64,000 nt of DNA, taken from Candidatus Cryosericum hinesii (GTDB lineage: Bacteria > Caldisericota > Caldisericia > Cryosericales > Cryosericaceae). Positions within the stretch are counted from its first letter, which is position 1. Every line of letters starts with the position of its first letter. This document shows positions 32,309-39,439 of the stretch, one piece after another. Made by a program: the position numbers and the translations under genes. Location: contig NZ_QXIW01000031.1 of NCBI RefSeq assembly GCF_003570985.1, positions 1 through 64,000 on the forward strand, written 5' to 3'. A model generated the notes under the pieces. That model was not told where the DNA came from. It did not search any database and saw nothing but the letters and a program-made list of their open reading frames with translations.

Positions 32309-34804
32309 CTAGATGAAGAAGTTGATATGACCCTGGTCAGCGTCGCCCAGCATGGTCGCGACGCCACCTTCTTCGATGCCGTCGATCAGCTCTTCGCGGT
32401 GGATACCCATCAGGTTCATGGACATCGTGCAGGCGATGAACTTGCCCCCGCCGTCGAGGACAGACCGCATCATTGCCTCTACAGGCGTCACGTTGTACTT
32501 TTTCATGAGGCCAAGGATCATGCCGGTGCCCATACCCATCATGTGCATCTTACTCAGAATGAGGTGTGTGGCGCCACGTGGCATCATCATGCCGAACATC
32601 TTCTCGATGAACGTCTTCTTGATGCGCACGTTCTCGTCCTTGCGAAGGACGTTGAGTCCCCAGAAGGTGAAGAACATACTGACTTTCTTGCCCATGGCCT
32701 GAGCGCCGTTCGCGATGATGAACGCCGCGATGACCTTGTCCAGGTCGTTACTGAACACGATGATGGTCGCGTGGTCGTCCGCCTTGCCTGGGACGACAAC
32801 GACTCCTGCTGTGGCGGCAGCCTGAAGAGGCTTCCGCAGTGTCGCCGTAACTAGCTTTCCACGCTGGCGGTCCACCACTTCCAGGCCCTGTGCCTGGGCA
32901 AAGGCTGCAACGTCGGCGTAGAACCCGGGATCCGAAGCCGTGATCTTGATCAGGTCACCAGGCCCTGTCTGTGCCAGTGCTTCTTTCAGTTTGAGCAGCG
33001 GCCCCGGGCACTGAAGGCCACAGGCATCGATCTCGACGGTTTTGGCCGAAGCTGGGGCGCGTGGTGCCAGCAATTCTGTCTTTGTAGCGCACGGCCCGCC
33101 CGTGCAGGTCTGCTGATCGTCCGCTTCGCGTTCGAGCCGTGTCGGCTGTTCTTCGATACCGTGTGTCACAGAAGCCTCCCAGCTTGTATAGCCACCGGTC
33201 AGGTTGGCGACCTGGAACCCGTTCTGGACCAGGATTCTCTGCGCAACGTACCCACGCAGGCCTGCCTTGCAGTAGGTAAGGATGATCTTTGCTCCCGTGG
33301 GCAACTCGCCGATACGGTTGCGCAGTTCGGGAAGTGGAATGGTCAGTGCGTCGGGAATGATGCCACAGGACGTCTCTTCCGGTTCACGCACGTCCAGGAG
33401 AATCGCACCTTTGGCGAGCTCTTCGGCAAGATGGTCAGGTGTCACGACGGGTGCCAGGTTCTCGAGGTCGTTCTGGGCCACAAAGCCCGCCATGTTCACT
33501 GGATCCTTGGCACTGCCATAAGGTGGAGCATAGGCAAGCTCGAGGTCAGTGAGGTCGTCGACGGTAGCGCCCAGACGCATGGCTGTGGCCAGGACGTCGA
33601 TGCGTTTGTCCACGCCGTCGTAGCCGGCGGCCTGAGCGCCGAACAACTTGCCCTCGGGGCTGTAGAGCAGTTTGATATGGACTGGCGTGCTCCCCGGGTA
33701 GTATCCGGCGTGTGAACCCGGATGGATGGTGATGGACCGGAAAGGGATACCCATTTTTGTCAACAGAGCCGCGCTGGCGCCGGTGGCTCCTGCTGCCAGG
33801 TCGAAGACTTTGACGATCGACGTGCCCTGTGTTCCTTCGTAGATATCATCTCTGCCGACGATGTTGTTGGCAGCGATGCGTGCCTGCCGGTTCGCCGGGC
33901 CTGCCAGCGGGATGAGCGCCTTGCTCTTCGTGACGAAGTGTTCGACCTCGATGACGTCACCGATGGCATAGATATCGGGGTCACTGGTGCGGAGGTGCTC
34001 GTCCACCAGGACGCCGTGGGAGGTGCCGATCGTAAGTCCAGCGTGTTCGGCTGTCTGCGTGTTTGGTCGTACGCCGATGGCGAGGATGACCATATCTGCT
34101 GCAAGCTGTGTCCCGCTGGTCAGGGTTACCGTCAGTGTGCTGTCCACGTTCTTCGCAAACGACTTGACTCCATCACCCAGGTGCAGGTCGACACCATGCA
34201 TCTGCAGTTCCTGATGAGCGTAGGCGGCGATGTCGGGGTCGAGGAACGCCAGTACCTGCGGCAGCATCTCGACCAGTGCGACGTCGACTTTCTGCTCCCT
34301 CAGGTTCTCTGCGACTTCGACGCCGATGAAACCCCCTCCGACGACGACAGCTTTCCTGGCACCAGCATGGACGGCCTGGATGATACGGTCCATATCAGGG
34401 ATGGTCCAGAGCGAATAGATGCCCTCACTGTCGATGCCTGAGATGGGTGGGCGCAGGGGAGAGCCGCCGGGAGACAGGATGAGCTTGTCATATCGGTCGG
34501 TCGTCTCGGTGCCGGTGGCGAGTTCTTTTACAGTGACCGTGTGTGCCTGCCGATCAATACTGGTTACCTCATGCCCCGTCAGGAAGTCGATATTGAAACG
34601 CTCCTTCATTGACGCAGGTGTCTGGACAAGCAGCTGGCTGCGATCTGTAATGACATTGCCTATGTGATAGGGAAGCCCGCAATTGGCGAAACTGATGTAG
34701 TCTCCCTTTTCGTAAACGACGATCTCCGCCTTCTCGTCGAGGCGGCGCAGGCGCGCTGCAGCTGAAGCTCCCCCGGCGTTTCCACCAACAATGATGACTC
34801 TCAC
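32309..34804 (-). CDS. CoA-disulfide-reductase-type flavoprotein fused to rhodanese, TusA and DsrE domains
   Basis: The product has 831 residues from GTG 34804 (SD ACAGGAGGAATAC). Residues 1-445 form a pyridine-nucleotide-disulfide oxidoreductase of the CoA-disulfide reductase/Nox type: N-terminal FAD motif VIIVGGNAGGASAAA, active-site Cys in FANCGLPYHIG (about 42) and NAD motif VVVGGGFIGVEVAENL. A rhodanese domain follows (Cys about 508 in TYCKAGLRG), then a TusA/SirA domain (CGLQCPGPLLKLKEAL about 595) and a DsrE/DsrF-like domain (from about 672). These domains together handle persulfide sulfur: the reductase frees CoA-SH or reduces persulfide, while rhodanese, TusA and DsrE relay sulfur. 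Related multidomain proteins act in sulfur or polysulfide metabolism of anaerobes. Confidence 0.93.
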   Translation of the reverse strand: MRVIIVGGNAGGASAAARLRRLDEKAEIVVYEKGDYISFANCGLPYHIGNVITDRSQLLVQTPASMKERFNIDFLTGHEVTSIDRQAHTVTVKELATGTETTDRYDKLILSPGGSPLRPPISGIDSEGIYSLWTIPDMDRIIQAVHAGARKAVVVGGGFIGVEVAENLREQKVDVALVEMLPQVLAFLDPDIAAYAHQELQMHGVDLHLGDGVKSFAKNVDSTLTVTLTSGTQLAADMVILAIGVRPNTQTAEHAGLTIGTSHGVLVDEHLRTSDPDIYAIGDVIEVEHFVTKSKALIPLAGPANRQARIAANNIVGRDDIYEGTQGTSIVKVFDLAAGATGASAALLTKMGIPFRSITIHPGSHAGYYPGSTPVHIKLLYSPEGKLFGAQAAGYDGVDKRIDVLATAMRLGATVDDLTDLELAYAPPYGSAKDPVNMAGFVAQNDLENLAPVVTPDHLAEELAKGAILLDVREPEETSCGIIPDALTIPLPELRNRIGELPTGAKIILTYCKAGLRGYVAQRILVQNGFQVANLTGGYTSWEASVTHGIEEQPTRLEREADDQQTCTGGPCATKTELLAPRAPASAKTVEIDACGLQCPGPLLKLKEALAQTGPGDLIKITASDPGFYADVAAFAQAQGLEVVDRQRGKLVTATLRKPLQAAATAGVVVVPGKADDHATIIVFSNDLDKVIAAFIIANGAQAMGKKVSMFFTFWGLNVLRKDENVRIKKTFIEKMFGMMMPRGATHLILSKMHMMGMGTGMILGLMKKYNVTPVEAMMRSVLDGGGKFIACTMSMNLMGIHREELIDGIEEGGVATMLGDADQGHINFFI

Positions 34805-34893
34805 GTATTCCTCCTGTTTCCTTGTGTTCTTCGTCACATAACCTCAATACCGTCACGCACATACCAGGATTCCATGAAACAATACTCAATAAG

Positions 34894-35069: not shown

Positions 35070-36095
35070 ATGACGCACCTTGACATCGTCTGGCATCCTG
35101 AGATGTTCCACGGCCGCGGATGGCGACCCAGCGGATTTGACGGGTGGTATTTCAAGGTCGTCGACCCCTCCGAGCGGCACGTGTGGGCAATCATACCGGG
35201 CATCTGGATGGACCGCGACCCGGCCAAGCAGTACTGCTTCATCCAGTTCCTCGATGGACGGACAGGCCACACGACGATGCACCGCTATCCTGCCCAGCAA
35301 TTCTGGTCCTCGCGCGACCGCTTCGACATCACGGTCGGCCAAAGCCGCTTCAGCCTGACATCCATGCACGTGGACATCGATGATCCGGACCTGCACCTGA
35401 AAGGAGACCTGCAATTCTCACAATCGCAAGGGTGGCCGATTCGCCCGTGGGCACCAGGGGCTATGGGGCCTTTTGCTTTCCTGCCGTTTCTCGAGGGGTA
35501 TCACGCCGTTACGAACGTCGACCCTCGCATCGTCGGTTCTCTCTCCGAGGGCGGCGATGAGATGGACTTTACCGGAGGGCGGGCCTACATGGAGCGGGAC
35601 TGGGGCAGTGCGTTCCCGCGTGCCTGGGTGTGGACGCAGTCCAACCATTTCGACGAGGATCATGTCTGCCTGACCGCTTCGATCGCGGACATCCCGCTGG
35701 CGGGCAGACTTCTTCGCGGGTTCATCGTCGGGTTCCTCTTCGGGGGCGTGTTCTACCAGTGGGCGACATGGAACGGGTCACGACTGGCGCACTTCGCGTA
35801 TGATGACCAGCGTGCCGAGTTCACAGTCGTCAACGGGAAACACATCCTGGAAGTCTGGAGCGGCGGACGGAGCGGGATGGGCCAGGTGTTCGCACCACGG
35901 GCCGGGGCCATGACGAAGATGCTGGTCGAAGAACTGAATGCTGTCGTGCAGGTTCGCCTGATCGAGCGACACGTGCATGGAGACGTCCTGTTGTTCGAGG
36001 GCCGTGGGCGCAACGGAGGACTCGAGATCAGTGGCGACATGCCTGTTCTCGCAGGTGGCGCTGAAACGGAGCGACTCTCGACCAGGCCTGTCTAG
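35070..36095 (+). CDS. Tocopherol-cyclase-like (lipocalin-fold) protein
   Basis: The product has 341 residues from ATG 35070; the SD is weak. The motif set resembles the tocopherol cyclase family: GWRPSGFDGWYFKVVD near residue 20, FIQFLDGRTGHTTMHRYP near 60, GDLQFSQSQGWP near 120, YMERDWGSAFPRAWVWTQSN near 175 and the final LLFEGRGRNGGLEISG. In plants and cyanobacteria this family cyclises quinol prenyl chains; bacterial and archaeal homologues of unknown function are common and could be non-catalytic lipocalin-like proteins. The gene is not near other quinone or carotenoid genes; a CruF-like gene lies 24 kb away. I am sure of the family, not of the activity. Confidence 0.75.
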   Translation: MTHLDIVWHPEMFHGRGWRPSGFDGWYFKVVDPSERHVWAIIPGIWMDRDPAKQYCFIQFLDGRTGHTTMHRYPAQQFWSSRDRFDITVGQSRFSLTSMHVDIDDPDLHLKGDLQFSQSQGWPIRPWAPGAMGPFAFLPFLEGYHAVTNVDPRIVGSLSEGGDEMDFTGGRAYMERDWGSAFPRAWVWTQSNHFDEDHVCLTASIADIPLAGRLLRGFIVGFLFGGVFYQWATWNGSRLAHFAYDDQRAEFTVVNGKHILEVWSGGRSGMGQVFAPRAGAMTKMLVEELNAVVQVRLIERHVHGDVLLFEGRGRNGGLEISGDMPVLAGGAETERLSTRPV

Positions 36096-36145
36096 CGACC
36101 GCAGGGTCTATAGGCCGGAACAGGTTGCTCATTCACATGTCGTCC

Positions 36146-36173
36146 TTGCAGCGTCGCCCGTTTTCACTAGAAT
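36146..36173 (+). promoter_or_regulatory. Promoter of the trp leader and trpB
   Basis: TTGCAG (36146-36151), a 16-base spacer and TAGAAT (36168-36173). Transcription would begin near 36180, a few bases before the leader-peptide ATG at 36187. Confidence 0.6.
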
Positions 36174-36186
36174 CATCGTACAGGTC

Positions 36187-36282
36187 ATGAATAGCGCACA
36201 GAGAACGGCCCTTCATACATTTTGCTGGTGGTGGACAGAGCTACATATGTCGCCCGGGGACCTGTGTGCGCTGACTGACTAG
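36187..36282 (+). CDS. trpL: trp leader peptide (31 aa, three consecutive Trp codons)
   Basis: ATG 36187 to TAG 36280-36282. The peptide contains CWWWTELH: codons TGG TGG TGG at 36226-36234 are preceded by TGC. The ribosome-binding site is weak (CAGGT). Trp is otherwise rare, so a run of three directly upstream of trpB is the hallmark of a ribosome-mediated attenuator. The surrounding RNA can form the needed alternative stems, described in the next feature. Confidence 0.85.
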   Translation: MNSAQRTALHTFCWWWTELHMSPGDLCALTD

Positions 36283-36331
36283 CGTCCATATCTTTATATA
36301 CCTCTACCCTCCGGGCGACCGGAGGGTTTTT
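36193..36331 (+). promoter_or_regulatory. trp transcription attenuator (1:2, 2:3 and 3:4 stems)
   Basis: Three mutually exclusive pairings are visible. 1:2 is 36193-36200 (AGCGCACA) with 36265-36272 (TGTGCGCT) and encloses the Trp codons. 2:3, the antiterminator, is 36249-36257 (GTCGCCCGG) with 36311-36319 (CCGGGCGAC), a 9-bp perfect match. 3:4, the terminator, is 36306-36314 (ACCCTCCGG) with 36319-36327 (CCGGAGGGT), followed by TTTTT. Ribosome stalling at the Trp codons would block strand 1, free strand 2 to pair with 3 and prevent termination, so trpB is transcribed when charged tRNA-Trp is scarce. Confidence 0.85.
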
Positions 36332-36376
36332 CGTTTTCTGTGCCCGACCTGAATCCAGCACAAGGAGAAACACCAT

Positions 36377-37612
36377 ATGAATACACTACCTCTGCACGCA
36401 GATGCAAACGGATACTTTGGGGCCTACGGAGGACAGTACGTCCCGCCTCAGCTCAAGACGATCCTGGACCGGCTGGATACCGCCTTTCAAGAGGCTGTCA
36501 ATGATCCAGCCTTCACTGGTGAGATGGATCGGCTGCTCCGTGACTACGTCGGCCGTCCCTCGCCATTGTATCGAGCCGATCGCCTGACCGCGTACGCAGC
36601 AGGCGCGCGTATCTACCTGAAACGTGAGGATCTCAACCACACGGGCGCACACAAGATCAACAACACTATTGGCCAGGGGCTGCTGGCCCGTCGCATGGGA
36701 GCGTCCAGGCTCATTGCCGAGACCGGCGCTGGCCAGCATGGAGTGGCGACCGCCACGGTTGCAGCGCTGCTCGGGATGGGTTGCGACATCTACATGGGAG
36801 CAGAGGACATGCGCAGACAGCATCTCAACGTGGTGCGCATGGAACTGCTGGGCGCCTGCGTCCATAGCGTGACCGACGGCTTGGCCACACTCAAGGACGC
36901 CGTGGACGCTGCGCTCGGTGCATGGGCCACTGACCCGGAAGCGTCGTTCTACCTGCTCGGATCGGCTGTCGGGCCACACCCATACCCTGAGGTCGTGCGC
37001 ACCTTCCAGTCAGTCATCGGACGTGAGGCGCGCGCTCAGGCGCTTCAAGCCGAAGGCAGACTGCCCGACGCCCTCGTCGCATGCGTCGGCGGAGGCAGCA
37101 ACGCGATCGGCCTGTTTGCCGACTTCCTCGAGAACGAAGACGTCGCACTGGTGGGTGTCGAGCCGGCGGGCAAGGGGTTGGCAACCGGCCTTCATGCCGC
37201 GACCATGACGGCGGGACATCCCGAGGTCATTCATGGCATGAGGACCTACGTCCTTGCGGACGACAAAGGCAATCCGACGCCTTGCTACTCTGTCGCGGCC
37301 GGCCTCGACTACCCGGGCGTCGGCCCCCAGCATGCTGCTCTCAGGGACTGCGGCCGTGCCACCTATGTTACAGCGACCGATACCGAGGCGCTCGAGGCGT
37401 TTGTGCTGCTCAGCCATCTCGAAGGTATCGTCCCGGCGCTCGAAAGCTCTCATGCCATAGCGTACGCCCTCCGTCTTGCCTCCACCATGAGACCCGACCA
37501 GTTCATCATCGTCAACCTCTCGGGGCGGGGTGACAAGGACGTCGATGAGGTGACGCGACTGCTCGATATCCGGAAAGACGTGGCCGTTGCCCCGGGCGGA
37601 TGCCCCCTGTAA
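36377..37612 (+). CDS. trpB: Tryptophan synthase beta chain
   Basis: The product has 411 residues from ATG 36377 (SD AAGGAGAAACACC). The beta-1 type signature is intact: [15 protein letters not shown] with the PLP lysine near residue 93, [41 protein letters not shown] and [10 protein letters not shown]. The enzyme makes L-tryptophan from indole and serine with PLP. There is no trpA or other trp gene beside it, so this trpB stands alone behind its own attenuator. It may salvage indole or pair with a TrpA encoded elsewhere. Length and motifs match the standard family. Confidence 0.96.
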
Positions 37613-37717
37613 CCTGACGGACGTTGCGACCGTACGCAAGGTGAGAGCAGGACGTGGGTACGAACAAGGGCCCGCCTGCCGCAAGCGGTTGCTCCGCTTT
37701 CCTGTGGGAGGTAGTAC

Positions 37718-38636: not shown

Positions 38637-38700
38637 TGTCGTTCCCCCCCGAGTATTTCAGTTCAATACGAGGGGTGCTCTCGGCGAAGACGGGAACCCA
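38637..38700. repeat. REP-like dispersed element, copy B
   Basis: It starts CTGTCGTTCCCCC and ends GACGGGAACCCA, with GAGTATTTCAGTTCAATACGA and GGGGTGCTCTCGGCGAAG inside. It matches the elements at 18122 and 43364. Confidence 0.75.
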
Positions 38701-38784
38701 CTCAGTGTCGGCGACTTCGTGAACTCGCTATACTGAACCGTGTGCTTGTCGCAGACAAGGGACAATCGTCATGGGAGGCCGAAT

Positions 38785-39357
38785 GTGCTCTTCGATACAC
38801 TGGTAGTGATCGCGCGTGCACTAAACCAGGCTGACGTTCACTGGGGTGTCGGTGCGTCTGTGCTGCTGTACTACCACGGTTTGGTCGACACACCGCACGA
38901 TATCGATATCATGACCAGCGAGGCAGACGCAGACATGGTTGCCTCGATCCTTGGCGGTCTGGGGAACGAAGTGCTTGGTGATCCCGGCAGAAGCCTGTAC
39001 TCGACAAGCCGGTTCCTCGAATACGTGGTCGACGAGACGGATGTCGACGTCATGGCCGGATTCGCCATCAAGCACGACAACGGCACCTATCTGTTTCCGT
39101 TCGACGACAGGTCTGTCACAATGAGGAAGAGCGTTGACGGCGTGACAATCCCGTTCACGTCGCTGGAAGACTGGTATGTATTCTACCAGCTTATACCGGG
39201 CAGGGAGGCCAAGGTGAAGCTGATCGAGGATCATATTCTGAACAGTGGGATTGCAGACCTGTCAGTTCTCGAGCGGGCGCTTGCTTGCGAATTGCCTCTT
39301 CATGTTCGCGCACGGATCGAACGACTGATGGCAGCTTGTCGTCGTTTACCGCACTAG
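38785..39357 (+). CDS. Nucleotidyltransferase-fold protein
   Basis: The product has 190 residues from GTG 38785 (SD GGGAGGCCGAAT). GVGASVLLYYHGLVDTPHDIDIM near residue 20 resembles the GxS-x10-DxD signature of the nucleotidyltransferase superfamily. A later Asp in ETDVDVMAGF may be a third metal ligand. Related proteins include antibiotic adenylyltransferases, HepT/MNT-type antitoxins and uncharacterised AbiEii-like enzymes. No HEPN partner gene is beside it. A TATACT -10 (38729-38734) lies upstream without a clear -35. Confidence 0.65.
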   Translation: MLFDTLVVIARALNQADVHWGVGASVLLYYHGLVDTPHDIDIMTSEADADMVASILGGLGNEVLGDPGRSLYSTSRFLEYVVDETDVDVMAGFAIKHDNGTYLFPFDDRSVTMRKSVDGVTIPFTSLEDWYVFYQLIPGREAKVKLIEDHILNSGIADLSVLERALACELPLHVRARIERLMAACRRLPH

Positions 39358-39439
39358 AGGCTCGGCCCGATCTGGGGAGCAATGACAACACATGGGCTCC
39401 CGCCTGCCCGGGAGTGACGGATTATCAGGCTGCCGCTCG

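Follow-up and report, generated by a model that had tools for sequence, protein, structure and literature searches.

The window analysed here, a 64-kb stretch of DNA (64,000 nucleotides), contains a short leader followed by a lone trpB gene, with the following features.

36052..37627, no strand: inserted segment, approximate extent, absent from seven congeners
36146..36173, + strand: candidate promoter TTGCAG-16-TAGAAT, weak, 8/12 consensus positions
36187..36282, + strand: leader peptide ORF, 31 codons plus TAG, from sequence translation and the position of the candidate -10
36192..36273, + strand: outer stem 36192-36200/36265-36273, a candidate pause stem joining the start of the leader ORF to its end, from folding
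36226..36234, + strand: three tandem Trp codons (TGG x3, codons 14-16), the putative sensor
36249..36319, + strand: antiterminator, segment 2 (36249-36259) paired with segment 3 (36309-36319)
36306..36331, + strand: intrinsic terminator 36306-36314/36319-36327 plus T tract
36363..36376, + strand: trpB Shine-Dalgarno (AAGGAGA) plus spacer, from sequence
36377..37612, + strand: trpB1, tryptophan synthase beta chain, 411 aa, lone (TIGR00263; no trpA in genome)

The leader frame encodes 31 residues (MNSAQRTALHTFCWWWTELHMSPGDLCALTD; ATG at 36187, TAG at 36280-36282, from translation of the window) and includes three consecutive TGG codons at 36226-36234, as originally predicted; this is the sole WWW within a short ORF in the window. 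The frame is open upstream as far as 35977. Downstream of the candidate -10, the ATG at 36187 is the sole in-frame start, with a predicted 5′ UTR of ~7 nt (counted from that -10) and no Shine-Dalgarno in front. The promoter named in the original prediction has to be downgraded: TTGCAG matches consensus at 3/6 positions and TAGAAT at 5/6, a promoter consensus scan reported no match there, and the element at 36146-36173 is weak, has no support above chance and is a candidate only.

The terminator is a 9-bp stem with a GCGA loop followed by T5, and the 9-bp core of the antiterminator (36249-36257/36311-36319) lengthens to 11 bp with one G-U pair (36249-36259/36309-36319); both had been predicted at these positions. 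The two structures have bases in common and nearly equal computed energies (antiterminator -19.6 kcal/mol, terminator -18.7 kcal/mol). The outer stem, first described as stem 1:2, lengthens to 9 bp and encloses the Trp codons and segment 2. The three stems had been taken to be mutually exclusive; all are present, but the outer stem can form alongside the terminator; only the antiterminator, whose pairing crosses it, rules it out. Folding with and without a ribosome largely gave the expected switch: the free transcript folds into outer stem plus terminator, a blocked ribosome footprint on Trp codon 3 leads to the antiterminator, and a footprint on codon 2 does so when only RNA downstream of the ribosome is folded, but at codon 1 the static fold is near balance, with the terminator marginally favoured. 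The antiterminator overlaps the terminator and lies just 3′ of where a ribosome would stall on the Trp codons, forming only marginally with the footprint at codon 1, and the tandem-Trp leader ORF with an intrinsic terminator between it and trpB is the layout of a ribosome-type trp attenuator. No Rfam family matched in the window at the gathering threshold, and a T-box (RF00230) or other Rfam element was rejected on that basis.

Ribosome-mediated trp attenuation is a textbook mechanism. In this leader, ample charged tRNA-Trp would let the ribosome pass WWW and cover segment 2 while polymerase makes segments 3 and 4; with segment 2 covered, the terminator would form and trpB would be off. When Trp is short, the ribosome would stall at 36226-36234, leaving segment 2 free to pair with segment 3, and trpB would be read. 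The leader stop codon sits 21 nt 3′ of segment 2. A ribosome held at this stop would leave segment 2 uncovered, contrary to the classic picture, and termination would depend on timing. The outer stem probably holds RNA polymerase in a pause until translation of the leader begins. In an E. coli-like scheme, with a polymerase pause freed by the ribosome (PMC1183508), transit over the last half of the leader would cover segment 2 while segments 3 and 4 emerge. A kinetic model with the spacing of the window and assumed rates gave a readthrough that rose from 0.18-0.37 to >0.97 as Trp-codon reading slowed from 15/s to 1/s. We infer that the leader is translated and that readthrough is Trp-dependent.

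The arrangement is rare. A strict scan demanded in-frame Trp-Trp codons, a 9-bp antiterminator and a terminator of at least 8 bp with T5, in order. Its sole match on both strands of the 64-kb window was the leader ahead of trpB, none was found in 2 Mb of simulated first-order Markov sequence, and 0.7 Mb of fetched loci yielded one independent site, directly 5′ of another lone trpB-type gene. The attenuator parts are real and beyond chance. The folding energy of the whole leader is unremarkable (z -1.3, not significant) and was dropped as evidence. Together with the weak promoter and the missing Shine-Dalgarno, that value would suit a terminator that only insulates trpB from upstream transcription, the Trp run being fortuitous and trpB held at a fixed level. 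We consider mere insulation very unlikely, because the combination occurs once in the window and never in the simulation, and because leaders of the same plan and unrelated sequence precede lone trpB2 in seven genomes of the phylum.

The trpB product scores 583 bits with TIGR00263 (cut-off 392), which identifies it as TrpB1, and falls below the TrpB2 cut-offs of NF009057 (179 bits, cut-off 366) and TIGR01415 (174 bits, cut-off 519). Its closest solved chain is 5ey5 (LBCA TrpB), and the PLP-lysine motif GAHKINN and other conserved catalytic motifs are present. At the positions of LBCA-Res6, a published stand-alone TrpB residue set (E36, E42, T53, S187, A279, M280; PMC11917138), the protein has A, D, S, S, M and R, a match at one of six. 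The set is absent from the protein and was set aside as proof of stand-alone activity.

Family searches for the Trp pathway, positive in 14 of 14 control genomes, bore out the claim that trpB stands without other trp genes. None of the 54 phylum genomes has TrpA above cut-off or TrpE (chorismate-binding enzyme), and none of the 15 genomes of the genus has TrpC; TrpA-like matches in four genomes of the sister family f3 were weak, partial and below cut-off, and were left out of the count. The window genome, 80% complete, shows the same gene absences as its relatives, trpA among them, and the locus does not qualify as a trp biosynthetic operon. TrpB is established to join indole to serine. As there is no route to indole glycerol phosphate, the sole obvious use of the enzyme is to join outside indole to serine; this chemistry and these gene absences suggest that it can only salvage indole, which would be its real substrate.

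The closest TrpB1s likewise have no trpA or trpF nearby. In a maximum-likelihood tree the window protein belongs to a clade of eleven (support 100/99) in which the other ten are all lone trpB, mostly from Bacillota; its own long branch makes its exact position inside the clade unsure. Trp T-boxes lie upstream of six of these ten genes (L002, L003, L009, L014, L023 and L048), five of them above the Rfam cut-off and L003 just under it (90.7 against 93 bits, E 2.5e-19). The specifier is UGG in all six by direct reading; Rfam alignments were used for L003 and for L099, a trpB2 locus of family f7. Candidate WW leaders near other TrpB1 loci proved to be chance frames only. At one locus, from a Dethiosulfatibacter MAG, a THF riboswitch (L023:3465-3555) lies directly 3′ of the T-box-controlled lone trpB.

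The lone TrpB1s also share residues: LBCA position 187 is Ser and position 279 is hydrophobic (Met or Phe) in 12 of 12 examined and in the window protein, unlike operon TrpBs, which have mostly Asn, Ser or Thr there. This bears on the possibility that the attenuator works as described and the TrpB1 homologue makes a non-Trp product by another beta-replacement, or mainly detoxifies indole. Such a role could be argued from an organism without TrpA or TrpC to supply indole and from the scarcity of LBCA-Res6 residues, but the shared residues of the lone-TrpB1 group, the TIGR00263 score and the Trp sensor ahead of the gene, which most simply means a Trp product, make it unlikely. Salvage of indole into Trp is the reading we carry forward.

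Leader and trpB together form an inserted segment of ~1.57 kb, flanked on one side by a gene for a tocopherol-cyclase-like protein (PF14249) and on the other by one for a toast-rack/LiaF-like protein. Seven congeners (G004, G007, G008, G010, G011, G013 and G014) have an empty site with matching borders and adjacent flanks, the aligned flanks being about 130-370 bp apart, compared with about 1.6 kb in the window. In G001, the closest genome judged from the upstream gene, the sequence ends short of the site. In the sister species G002 (L082/L124, G002:C41) the same locus carries a deletion bounded by short GCTC matches, opposite about 36125 to 37336. Promoter, leader and some 318 codons are gone, and what remains is a trpB pseudogene of the last 93 codons only. 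Across these 93 shared codons the differences from the window trpB are mostly silent (dN/dS 0.11; 0.27-0.31 for neighbour genes in the same comparison), which suggests that purifying selection acted on trpB over much of the period after the two lineages parted. The cassette appears to have been present in the common ancestor of the window genome (G000) and G002, to have been selected, and then to have been lost in G002.

No intact orthologue of the leader and trpB was found in any other genome searched. Relatives that keep trpB after losing the leader, the pattern the original prediction had named as speaking against it, were not seen; G002 lost the leader and most of the gene together. A single-lineage gain would be simpler than repeated loss with identical borders, and we infer the direction of transfer. 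As for a donor, plasmids were rejected (plasmid TrpBs at most about 60% identical), and the best genome matches, at 62% identity, gave no closer TrpB1 source. Further along the window, a PF10706-like nucleotidyltransferase gene (38740-39354; region 38647-39390) is absent in G002, where a short sequence containing a CCCGC-type palindrome repeat takes its place.

Leaders of the same plan were found in family f3, where a lone trpB2 stands behind a WxWW leader and terminator in seven genomes (G021, G022, G026, G029, G031, G035 and G037). The motifs are WMWW, WSWW or WAWWW, the antiterminator arm lies within the ORF, and several leaders have a stem analogous to the outer stem of the window; that segment 2 is placed within the ORF here too suggests that this geometry is workable. 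The TrpB2 assignment follows from NF009057 scores of 712-716 bits in the two proteins tested. The terminating fold pairs 84.8% of cells, against 32-57% in slid versions, and shows both-side changes in 6 of 23 pairs; its covariation score was matched by 1 of 500 shuffles, in a type of test that relatedness inflates. The antiterminator alone pairs 89% of cells, with weaker covariation. A model built from these leaders (R1) finds the seven and an eighth f3 genome, G034, whose solo leader (L132, G034:C23:3746-3907) is followed by no trpB2. With its T tract broken, this leader resembles a relic and mirrors the loss in G002. A weak R1 match in G040, with no trpB beside it, was set aside. R1 aligns end to end with the window leader but scores 6.1 bits, and homology is not claimed.

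A leader without its gene, as in G034, could point to action in trans, by either the peptide or the small RNA left by termination, with control of trpB secondary, comparable to peTrpL/rnTrpL of Sinorhizobium meliloti (PMC7298713). The nearly leaderless ORF of the window is a further likeness, the trpL ORF of S. meliloti beginning at the first base of the transcript (PMC7298713). We judge a trans role highly improbable: no leader peptide is conserved outside the trpB setting, and the broken T tract gives the G034 leader the look of a relic. Control of the adjacent trpB by attenuation is preferred. In f3, trpB2 is followed by a DUF1015 gene (L096:2849-4078; similar ORFs in L095 and L102). TrpB2 has been linked to O-phosphoserine and DUF1015 proteins to free-serine kinases; on these links, the gene order would fit a two-step indole salvage operon.

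In the distant family f7, lone trpB2 genes stand behind Trp T-boxes in three genomes (L097, L098 and L099), and all 11 lone trpB genes found in the phylum stand behind a Trp-starvation sensor of one of two devices. We tentatively suggest, at somewhat less than even odds, that several times in a phylum without tryptophan synthesis two unrelated lone trpB types came under Trp-starvation RNA switches by different devices: attenuators on TrpB1 and TrpB2, and T-boxes on TrpB2. The window cassette would then have exchanged the T-box usual in its TrpB1 clade for an attenuator read by the ribosome, and would travel as a single mobile 'regulated indole-salvage' unit, easily gained and lost.

With a probability of roughly 85%, judged from sequence, the segment is a ribosome-mediated transcription attenuator on a lone TrpB1 that makes Trp from scavenged indole and serine, leader and gene having entered the lineage as one inserted segment. 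Ribosome-mediated Trp attenuation ahead of a single trpB, the core of the original prediction, stands as the best reading given the non-random parts, the TrpB1 assignment, the pathway absence and the Trp-sensing leaders on independent lone trpB genes; the insertion, the indole-salvage role and a theme common across the phylum go beyond it.

The mechanism is known and the setting is unusual. Trp attenuators of E. coli, Corynebacterium and Streptomyces (PMC1183508, PMC1262725), which are predicted in the latter two ahead of trp operons and in C. diphtheriae ahead of trpB2A (PMC1262725), share with the window a tandem-UGG leader ORF, 2:3 and 3:4 stems of similar stability and a T tract. The window differs in its single trpB with the rest of the pathway missing, and in a segment 2 inside the leader ORF, a stop 21 nt further on and an outer stem joining the ORF ends. 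In Chlamydia trachomatis trpRBA, the region between trpR and trpB is predicted to hold an attenuator that awaits firm proof by experiment (PMC6504234). In both cases a Trp auxotroph has a predicted Trp attenuator ahead of a tryptophan synthase that salvages indole, but C. trachomatis has trpA and the repressor TrpR, with the trpBA promoter also under YtgR (PMC6504234), and the window trpB is alone.

T-box-controlled lone trpB genes (the TrpB1 loci, L097-L099 and Dehalococcoides, with a T-box on a trpB-like gene; PMC2494555) have the same target gene and input, uncharged tRNA-Trp, as the window. The T-box binds the tRNA directly, whereas in the window device a stalled ribosome would read it. 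The f3 attenuators are laid out alike, with Trp codons after a short 5′ UTR, segment 2 in the ORF, a terminator and, in several, an outer stem; they differ in showing no sequence homology and in serving TrpB2, followed by a DUF1015 gene in at least one. The novelty lies in combining a lone TrpB1 cassette with a Trp switch read by the ribosome, in a phylum whose members apparently do not make tryptophan. Trp attenuation would here serve a salvage enzyme instead of a biosynthetic pathway, in a group other than those from which it is usually described. The host should depend on its neighbours for indole, and cross-feeding is predicted in which trpB is on only when Trp is scarce. The repeated pairing of a lone trpB with a Trp sensor could serve as a practical rule for spotting genes of indole salvage in genome sequences, and it offers a natural comparison of the two devices, T-box and ribosome-read attenuator, on one target gene.

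Elsewhere in the window, 32309-34837 on the - strand encodes an 842-aa protein that joins pyridine-nucleotide disulfide reductase, rhodanese, TusA and DsrE-like domains.
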